Translations under genes and position numbers: made by a program
The notes under the pieces: generated by a model
Seen by the model: only the letters and a program-made list of their open reading frames with translations
What the model was told of the DNA's origin: nothing
Database searches by the model: none
NCBI GenBank assembly: GCA_023511835.1
Contig: JAIMAT010000008.1
Location: 1 to 48,811, forward strand
Source of the DNA: Bacillota bacterium
Lineage (GTDB): Bacteria; Bacillota; Sulfobacillia; JAIMAT01
DNA length: 48,811 nt
Reading direction: 5' to 3'
Part shown: positions 5,862 through 8,709 of the stretch, in pieces
Layout: every line of letters starts with the position of its first letter
Position numbering within the stretch: position 1 is the first letter of the stretch

Positions 5862-7346
5862 ATGGAGAGCGAGCGCGAGCAGGCCAACAAGGAGGCGCCG
5901 GCGGCGCGCGGCGAGCGCCGCCGGCCGGGGAGCGTGCGGCCCATCCTGGACAGCAGCCGCCCCGAGGTGCGTCGCAAGGCGCGCCCGGTGCGGCGCATCA
6001 CGCGCCAGATCGCCAGGCTGCTGGACGACATGGCCGCCACCATGTACGACGCCGACGGCGTCGGGCTGGCGGCGCCGCAGATCGGGGTCGACCTGCGCGT
6101 CATCGTGGTCGACGTGGGCGACGGGCTGATCGAGATGATCAACCCCGAGCTGCTCAAGAGCGAGGGGGAGCAGACGGGGTACGAGGGCTGCCTGAGCGTC
6201 CCCGGCTACGTGGGCGAGGTGACGCGGGCGCGCCACGTGCGCGTCACCGGCCTTGACCGCGAGGGGCGGCGCATCTGGGTGGACGCCGACGACTTCAAGG
6301 CGCGGGCCTTCCAGCACGAGCTGGACCATCTGGACGGGATTCTCTACGTGGACAAGGCGGAGCACGTGGTCCGCCTGCCGCCGGAGACCGCCTACCGACT
6401 GGTCTTCATGGGCACGCCCGAATTCGGGGTGACGGTGCTCCGGCGTCTTGCCCGCCATGGCTTCAAGCTGGCCGGCGTGGTGACGCAGCCCGACCGGCGG
6501 CGGGGTCGCGGCCAGGCGATCCTCCCCTCGCCAGTTAAGCGCCAGGCGCAGGAGTACGGCCTGACCATCCTGGAGCCGGAGAGCCCGCGGGACCCCGCCT
6601 TCGTGGAGGAGCTCCGCCGGCTGCGCCCGGACGTCCTGGTCACCGCTGCCTACGGCTTCGTCCTGCCGCCGGAGGTGCTGGCCGTGCCGGCGGTGGCCGC
6701 GCTCAACGTCCATCCCTCGCTCCTGCCGCGCTACCGCGGCCCCGCGCCCGTCGAGCGCGCCCTGATGGCGGGTGAGAGGGAGACGGGGGTCAGCATCATT
6801 CGCATGGCGGAGCGGGTGGACGCGGGCGAGGTGCTGGCGCAGCGGCGCATACCGATCGACGAGGAGGACGATGCCGGCTCGCTGGGGGCCAAGCTGGCGG
6901 CGGCGGGCGCCGAGCTGCTCATCGAGGTGCTCCACCGCATGGCCACGGGGGAGAGCGTGGAGGGACGGCCGCAGGAGGAGGCGGAGGCCAGCTACGCGCC
7001 CAAGATCCGCCCCGAGGAGGAGCGCCTGGAGTGGAGCCGGCCGGCGGCGGCGCTGGTCGACCAGATCCGCGCTCTCAGCCCGCGACCCGGCGCCTACACG
7101 CTCCACCGCGGCGAGCGACTGAAGGTTTTCCGCGCGCAGGCCCTGCCCGGCCCCGAGCCCCCCGCGACCGCGGCCGAGCCGGGCCGGGTGGTGGCGGTGG
7201 ACGCCCGTTCGCTGGTGGTCGCCTGCGGCCCGGAGGGGCAGGAGCGCGTCCGCCTCCTGGAGGTGCAACCGGCGGGGCGGCGGCGCATGTCCGTGGGTGA
7301 TTTTCTCCGTGGCAACCCGGTCGAGCCGGGGGAGCGACTTGCCTGA
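5862..7346 (+). CDS. Peptide deformylase / methionyl-tRNA formyltransferase fusion
   Basis: One 494-residue frame carries both enzymes. Residues 25-165 are peptide deformylase, which removes formate from nascent fMet chains. All three metal motifs are present: GVGLAAPQ (66-73), EGCLS (108-112, metal Cys110) and HELDH (152-156, metal His152 and His156). Residues 179-494 are Fmt, which formylates Met-tRNAi from 10-formyl-THF. It begins RLVFMGTPEF, has NVHPSLLPRYRG with Asn282 and His284, and VDAGEVL with Asp320, matching the Asn/His/Asp catalytic set, plus a C-terminal OB-like domain. Only about 13 residues join them. No ATG lies before the Fmt core. An in-frame GTG at 6366 behind a weak AAGG could start a separate 326-residue Fmt. 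In B. subtilis def and fmt are separate neighbours at this point. The start is ATG with AAGGAGAGGG upstream; the first 24 residues are a charged extension. Confidence 0.93.
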   Translation: MESEREQANKEAPAARGERRRPGSVRPILDSSRPEVRRKARPVRRITRQIARLLDDMAATMYDADGVGLAAPQIGVDLRVIVVDVGDGLIEMINPELLKSEGEQTGYEGCLSVPGYVGEVTRARHVRVTGLDREGRRIWVDADDFKARAFQHELDHLDGILYVDKAEHVVRLPPETAYRLVFMGTPEFGVTVLRRLARHGFKLAGVVTQPDRRRGRGQAILPSPVKRQAQEYGLTILEPESPRDPAFVEELRRLRPDVLVTAAYGFVLPPEVLAVPAVAALNVHPSLLPRYRGPAPVERALMAGERETGVSIIRMAERVDAGEVLAQRRIPIDEEDDAGSLGAKLAAAGAELLIEVLHRMATGESVEGRPQEEAEASYAPKIRPEEERLEWSRPAAALVDQIRALSPRPGAYTLHRGERLKVFRAQALPGPEPPATAAEPGRVVAVDARSLVVACGPEGQERVRLLEVQPAGRRRMSVGDFLRGNPVEPGERLA

Positions 7347-8709
7347 GAAGCCTCCGGGGCGGGCGGGCGGAGCGGCGGGCGCGCGGCGGGTGGCGCTCGG
7401 CGCCTGTCTGGCTGTGGAACGCGGGCAGCGGGCCAGGGAGGCGCTGGAGGCGGAGCTGGCCGCGGCGGGCGGACTCTCCGCGGCCGACCGCCACCTGGCC
7501 ACCGAGCTCCTCTACGGGACGGTGCGGCTGATGCGCCGCCTCGACTACCTGCTGGAACGCTTTTCGCGCCGGCCCCTCCGCCTTCTCCAGCCGGAGGTCC
7601 GCTGGGCCCTCCGCCTGGCGCTCTTCCAGCTGAGCGAGACCTCCGTCCCGGAGCACGCGGCGGTCTACGAGACGCTGGAGGCGCTGCGGGCGGCGGGCGG
7701 GAAAGCCGGAGTGGGCTACGCCAACGCCGTGTTGCGCCAGGCGCTGCGCCGCCGGGAGGAGTGGAGCCTGCCGGAGGGAGCGGAGGCGGAGGCGCTGGCG
7801 ATCCGCCACTCCTTCCCGGACTGGCTGGCCCGCCGCTGGGTGGAACGCTACGGGAGCGGGGAGGCGGAGCGGCTGATGCGCTACATGAACGAGCCACCGC
7901 CCTTGACGGTGCGCGTCAACCGCCTCCGCGCCCGCCCCGAGGAGGCGCTGGAGAGACTGCGGGCGGCCGGCCTGGAGGCGGAGCCGGGGCTGACGGGCGC
8001 GCAGGTGATCCGCCTGCGAGGGGGCTCCCCGGCCGAGCTCCCCGGCTGGTCGGAGGGCTGGTACCAGGTCCAGTCGGAGGCCTCCTTCCTGATCGGCCTG
8101 AGCGTGGGCGCCAAGCCCGGCGAGCGGATCCTGGACGTGGCCGCGGCGCCGGGCGGCAAGAGCACCCACCTGGCCGAGCAGACCGGCGACCGCGGGCTGG
8201 TGCTGGCCGTCGACGTGGACGCGGGGCGGCTCCGGCGGGTGAAGGAGAACGCGCGCCGCCTGGGTCTCCGCTCGATCCGCCTGCTGGCCGAAGACGCCCG
8301 CCGGCTCGCCGCGCGGCTGGAGCCGGGCTCTTTCGACCGCGTGCTGGTGGACGCGCCCTGCACCGGCACCGGCGTCCTCAACCGCCGCCCCGAGGCCCGC
8401 TGGAGGAAGCGGCCCGGGGACGTGGCGGCGGCCGCGCGCCTCCAGGCCCAGATCCTGGACGGCGTGGCGCCGCTGGTACGCCCGGGTGGGACGCTGGTCT
8501 ACTCCACGTGTACACTCGAACCGGAGGAGAACGCGGCCACCGTCGAGGCGTTTCTGCGCCGCTGGCCAACCTTCCGGCGGGAGGCGCTGGCGCCCTGGCT
8601 GCCGGAGCGACTGGCGGGGCGGGTGGAGCGGGAGGGCGAGATCCAGCTGCTCCCGCAGCGCGACGGGCTGGACGGGCACTACATCGCCCGCCTGGCCAGG
8701 GAGGCGTGA
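7339..8709 (+). CDS. rsmB: 16S rRNA m5C967 methyltransferase RsmB
   Basis: Methylates C967 of 16S rRNA with SAM. From the TTG at 7339 it is 456 residues. It has an N-terminal NusB-like helical domain (about 15-150), a SAM site DVAAAPGGKSTHLAEQ starting near 266, the DAPCTGTG motif with Cys341 and the STCTLEPEEN motif with catalytic Cys391. TTG was chosen because a GGGGGAG lies just ahead and it overlaps the fmt stop by only 8 bases; a GTG at 7390 is also possible, and an upstream ATG at 7297 inside fmt is less likely. Follows def-fmt as in B. subtilis. Confidence 0.94.
   Translation: MPEKPPGRAGGAAGARRVALGACLAVERGQRAREALEAELAAAGGLSAADRHLATELLYGTVRLMRRLDYLLERFSRRPLRLLQPEVRWALRLALFQLSETSVPEHAAVYETLEALRAAGGKAGVGYANAVLRQALRRREEWSLPEGAEAEALAIRHSFPDWLARRWVERYGSGEAERLMRYMNEPPPLTVRVNRLRARPEEALERLRAAGLEAEPGLTGAQVIRLRGGSPAELPGWSEGWYQVQSEASFLIGLSVGAKPGERILDVAAAPGGKSTHLAEQTGDRGLVLAVDVDAGRLRRVKENARRLGLRSIRLLAEDARRLAARLEPGSFDRVLVDAPCTGTGVLNRRPEARWRKRPGDVAAAARLQAQILDGVAPLVRPGGTLVYSTCTLEPEENAATVEAFLRRWPTFRREALAPWLPERLAGRVEREGEIQLLPQRDGLDGHYIARLAREA

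Follow-up and report, generated by a model that had tools for sequence, protein, structure and literature searches.

The window analysed here, a stretch of 48,811 nucleotides from a Bacillota bacterium of a high-GC lineage, carries on its forward strand, at positions 5862 to 7346, an uninterrupted frame of 494 codons that runs from an ATG to a TGA (7344-7346) with no internal stops. The frame encodes a complete peptide deformylase (Def), about 11 joining residues and a complete methionyl-tRNA formyltransferase (Fmt), and its product matches the Pfam families PF01327 (residues 26-168, E 4e-48), PF00551 (180-357, 1e-42) and PF02911 (381-485, 3e-23). It also exceeds the curated cut-offs of both NCBIfam equivalogs, TIGR00079 for def and TIGR00460 for fmt, scoring 281 bits against a cut-off of 201.5 for the latter. 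A preliminary description had read the locus as Def and Fmt in one chain of 494 residues, and the single frame and the two domain families bear this out.

Features and neighbourhood of the fused gene

The protein begins with an N-terminal extension of about 25 residues (5862-5936) that is not present in E. coli Def and is modelled with low confidence (pLDDT below 50 for residues 1-19); in congeners, the alignment of this part starts at residue 1 or 3. It is followed by the Def domain (5937-6365), in which motif 1, GVGLAAPQ (residues 66-73), lies at 6057-6080, motif 2, EGCLS (108-112, with the metal ligand Cys110), at 6183-6197, and motif 3, HELDH (152-156, with the metal ligands His152 and His156 and with Glu153), at 6315-6329. 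The join VVRLPPETAYR (6366-6398) leads into the Fmt catalytic domain (6399-6932), which begins about 12 residues past the Def core and contains Asn282 and His284 in the motif NVH (6705-6713) as well as Asp320 (6819-6821). The C-terminal tRNA-binding domain of Fmt occupies positions 7002-7316, and all of these features are on the forward strand. Comparison with E. coli Def and Fmt showed that all their catalytic positions are retained, and residues Q73, C110, H152, E153, H156, N282, H284 and D320 are invariant in an alignment of 33 diverse sequences, in agreement with the earlier statement that the metal motifs of Def and the Asn/His/Asp of Fmt are intact. With the Def motifs, the Fmt equivalog match, the catalytic Asn/His/Asp and the C-terminal tRNA-binding domain, the chain has the traits by which members of both families are recognised, and both activities are probably present in this protein, judging from these comparisons.

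The gene is part of a housekeeping cluster in the order gmk, priA, def-fmt, rsmB, rlmN, a PP2C phosphatase, a PASTA kinase and rsgA. The rsmB frame (7297-8709, forward strand) opens upstream of the stop codon of the fusion, so that rsmB either adjoins fmt directly or overlaps its end. The source assembly has 2.36 Mb in 156 contigs and is 96% complete. Stand-alone def or fmt genes, a search for which had been proposed, were not found in it: PF01327 has one match, the fusion, and PF00551 has two, the fusion and purN, which adjoins purM. Within the limits of the assembly, the fusion is the sole deformylase and the sole Fmt, and since it is the only deformylase found, it must perform this essential function while fused.

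Three known systems are close enough for comparison. In the stand-alone def-fmt-rsmB cluster of E. coli and of most bacteria that keep the adjacency, the order, the catalytic residues and the domains are the same, and rsmB is the next gene here too; however, that cluster makes Def and Fmt as separate proteins, the genes being divided by a stop codon and, as a rule, a ribosome site, whereas one chain is encoded here. ArnA, which joins a UDP-L-Ara4N formyltransferase to an oxidative decarboxylase, is likewise bifunctional and includes a formyltransferase domain, but there this domain is N-terminal and its partner is unrelated, and the fused Def-Fmt protein scores only 175.6 bits against the ArnA equivalog cut-off of 777. 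The closest counterpart is the def-fmt fusion of four Exiguobacterium genomes, each of which has a second deformylase according to the available text of the study (PMC12690207, Mol Biol Evol 2025). As in that fusion, a single open frame places Def N-terminal to Fmt, and the available text describes both activities as working while fused, the gene complementing an E. coli def-fmt deletion (PMC12690207). The differences are a separate origin and linker, taking the fused Bacilli described below to be this genus, and the second deformylase reported there, whereas none besides the fusion was found here. The preliminary description knew of no such fusion as a characterised enzyme, which no longer applies, since the Exiguobacterium fusion was characterised in November 2025 (PMC12690207). 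A search of the available literature found no paper connecting Thermaerobacter with deformylase.

One chain or two

To assess translation at the domain boundary, Shine-Dalgarno (SD) pairing at the Fmt start was compared between 59 unfused genes, 48 of them from the class of this bacterium, and 72 fused genes of the class. The median SD energy was -8.2 kcal/mol in the unfused genes and -2.4 kcal/mol in the fused ones, in which the mean of -2.9 equals that of control windows of the same genes (-3.0), and at the boundary of 39% of the 72 fused genes no start codon is accompanied by SD pairing. Because no internal start signal rises above background, the gene is best read as encoding one bifunctional chain, and a dedicated second start is unlikely from the sequences. 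The claim that the short join has neither a stop nor an ATG holds for the linker proper, but an ATG is present in the VFMGTP stretch of Fmt, and a candidate GTG start lies at 6366-6368 with the weak SD-like sequence AAGGCGGAG upstream. With an SD energy of -6.4 kcal/mol, this GTG could also give rise to a stand-alone Fmt, so that the cell would contain the fusion and free Fmt side by side; yet the signal is not kept in congeners, the equivalent position having -3.5 kcal/mol in G001 and a CTG codon in G002, and with boundary signals across the 72 fused genes no higher than in control windows we regard this as quite improbable.

The structure was modelled with AlphaFold2 on 33 colinear rows, for which separate neighbouring genes were read through the stop; these were chosen over separate Def-only and Fmt-only rows, whose alignment with the fusion put the Fmt rows in the wrong place, and loci from the genome search were excluded. 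The model has a mean pLDDT of 90.6 and is confident for both domains; it predicts a strand and not a helix at residues 168-171, and the linker has lower confidence (block mean 68). The pTM of 0.65 leaves the relative orientation of the domains unfixed, so the model says nothing on coupling. Among the best 60 of 151 matches to solved structures, none covers both domains. That one chain is made and then cleaved into Def and Fmt could be read from the linker being the lowest-confidence part of the folded region, but this clade has a short, conserved spacer, and we consider such processing very improbable.

An assembly error or frameshift artefact that joins two genes might be suspected in a draft genome of 156 contigs; the fusion, however, is also found without stops in two independent assemblies of the genus (85% and 80% identity) and in single-contig genomes of the class, and the linker is conserved in both sequence and length. 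Its presence in independent congeneric assemblies and in 72 class genomes means that it is not a sequencing error, and the chance of an artefact is close to nil. The reading we prefer, with a probability of roughly 0.87, is a genuine fusion of adjacent def and fmt genes by loss of a stop codon, giving one bifunctional polypeptide with a short linker and active sites that are likely independent. The N-terminal domain would remove formyl groups from nascent chains, and the C-terminal part with its two domains would formylate Met-tRNAi, the two sites most likely acting each on its own substrate. The protein probably remains one chain in the cell. The 1:1 ratio of activities put forward earlier is implied by the single chain, and supply in this ratio from a single translation start would be the main effect of the fusion.

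Distribution and origin of the fusion

A survey of the architecture across genomes together with a tree had been suggested, and both were carried out. We searched 154 genomes of the class (Sulfobacillia in the GTDB lineage) and read the def/fmt region directly in the 120 in which both domains are adjacent, finding 72 fused and 48 separate. The fused genomes belong to 25 family codes, and 58 of the 72, among them the single-contig genomes G024 and G043, have only one deformylase gene. A single contig of 2,844,696 bp bears the fusion, and class contigs of 3,566,135 bp and 3,472,898 bp have def and fmt unfused. Genome G017 (L033) has the fused gene in two pieces within the Def domain (query 16-87 and 84-493), which reflects either an assembly frameshift or a broken def. 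Genome G053, also of the class and 92% complete, gave no deformylase match and no Fmt match at 1e-30, either because sequence is missing or because formylation has been lost, which would be unusual.

Outside the class, no fusion was present among the best 80 named loci, and in a phylum sample of 299 genomes the full-length Def-Fmt matches outside the class all carry at least one stop. A sample of 399 Bacilli yielded about 37 genomes, of 2.6-3.4 Mb, with a stop-free full-length match; 13 of these loci were read directly, and they are fused. The fused Bacilli are presumably Exiguobacterium. Three further candidates (G444, G403 and G219) were rejected as fusions, as their open-frame length was misleading and direct reading revealed a stop.

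The tree was built from both domains with the linker excluded. In it, the fused Bacilli group together in a clade (100/100) that is nested within unfused Bacilli (100/99), which places the Bacilli fusion apart from that of the class. Common descent of the class fusion with the fused Bacilli genes is rejected, the constraint of all fused rows to one clade having an AU p of 0.001. As the fused Bacilli are nested apart and a single fused clade is rejected, the fusion arose at least two times. The fused state changes 10 times over the whole tree, several of these changes lying within the class, and a single clade of class fusions has an AU p of 0.16; a single origin within the class is therefore neither shown nor rejected, and gains are indistinguishable from losses.

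Many unfused relatives have def and fmt in-frame with one to three stops between them, and because such pairs are common, loss of a stop suffices for fusion. We infer that the fusion originated in this way: def and fmt would already have been operon neighbours, and the def stop codon would have been lost with at most a small change in spacing. In several genomes of the class (G004, L030; G038, L142; G113, L147; G076, L193; G050, L194; G077, L195; G078, L196), def and fmt share a reading frame and are parted by only a stop codon and 0-6 bases before the Fmt match. Such stop-parted in-frame pairs are one mutation from, or to, a fusion.

Linker, ribosome docking and significance

Counted from the first residue past HExxH up to where the xVFMG of Fmt begins, 35 fused class genomes (32 distinct sequences) share a spacer of exactly 23 residues, and a PPExxLR stretch is conserved in it (P in 27, E in 25, L in 24 and R in 22 of the 32). 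In the remaining fused lineages of the class, the spacer ranges from 21 to 83 residues and looks flexible or acidic, and the Bacilli linkers, for example LVEQEKPRVVFMG, LAVPRKGTDQRIVFMG and LVEQEKPR, look unrelated to that of the class.

E. coli Def docks to the ribosome via a basic C-terminal helix, as described in the available texts of PMC12690207 and PMC8712518, the former naming L149, K150, R153, K157, K160 and R163 as helix residues. This trait of type-1B enzymes was looked for in the fused protein and is not there. The preliminary description was right that the chain has no room for a helix of the E. coli type, but its absence cannot be put down to the fusion: the unfused Def tails (n=59, 48 from the class) are mostly acidic, with a median net charge of -5 against +6 in E. 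coli. Since a basic tail is missing from the unfused relatives as well, the lack of the helix need not be due to the fusion, and docking would differ whether or not the genes are fused. In unfused Symbiobacterium-like genomes (for example L159, L161, L149 and L157), the stand-alone Def has, beyond its catalytic core, a long, low-complexity, Glu/Ala-rich C-terminal tail of up to about 90 residues.

The product of deformylase is formate, and the formyl donor of Fmt is 10-formyl-THF. A cycling of formyl groups at the ribosome, as had been proposed, has no direct chemical route, because formate is released and Fmt needs 10-formyl-THF. Formate-THF ligase and FolD are encoded by separate genes elsewhere in the genome, so any recycling goes via the soluble pool; it is metabolic and not a transfer from active site to active site.

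The fusion might still couple the two reactions or anchor Fmt near the tunnel exit and have been selected for this, and the conserved, fixed-length spacer of 35 genomes and the at least two independent origins would fit such a role. We consider it doubtful, however: the spacers elsewhere in the class, with their range of lengths and flexible or acidic look, are ill-suited to precise geometry, formate is not a substrate of Fmt, class members without the fusion manage, and separation by one to three stops is common, so that neutral fixation is sufficient. A little more doubtful still is the idea that the PPExxLR linker sets a Def/Fmt geometry that is important in the cell, with formylation and deformylation physically coordinated in much of the class; under it, Def may, for instance, bring Fmt to the ribosome, or a new docking surface may replace the missing helix.

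This kind of fusion is already known and, by the available text of PMC12690207, functional in Exiguobacterium. What is new is its independent occurrence and breadth in another class, with a fixed linker and usually as the sole deformylase. The architecture was overlooked, as the survey published in 2025, which covered 5,042 reference genomes, in its available text reports it from Exiguobacterium alone (PMC12690207). Our findings indicate that the fusion is not the oddity of one genus; it has at least two origins and is a feature of much of another class. In the fused lineages, formylation and deformylation are not controlled separately and a ribosome-binding tail of the E. coli type is absent, which makes these lineages a natural experiment on whether the levels of the two activities have to be independent and on how a tail-less deformylase finds nascent chains.
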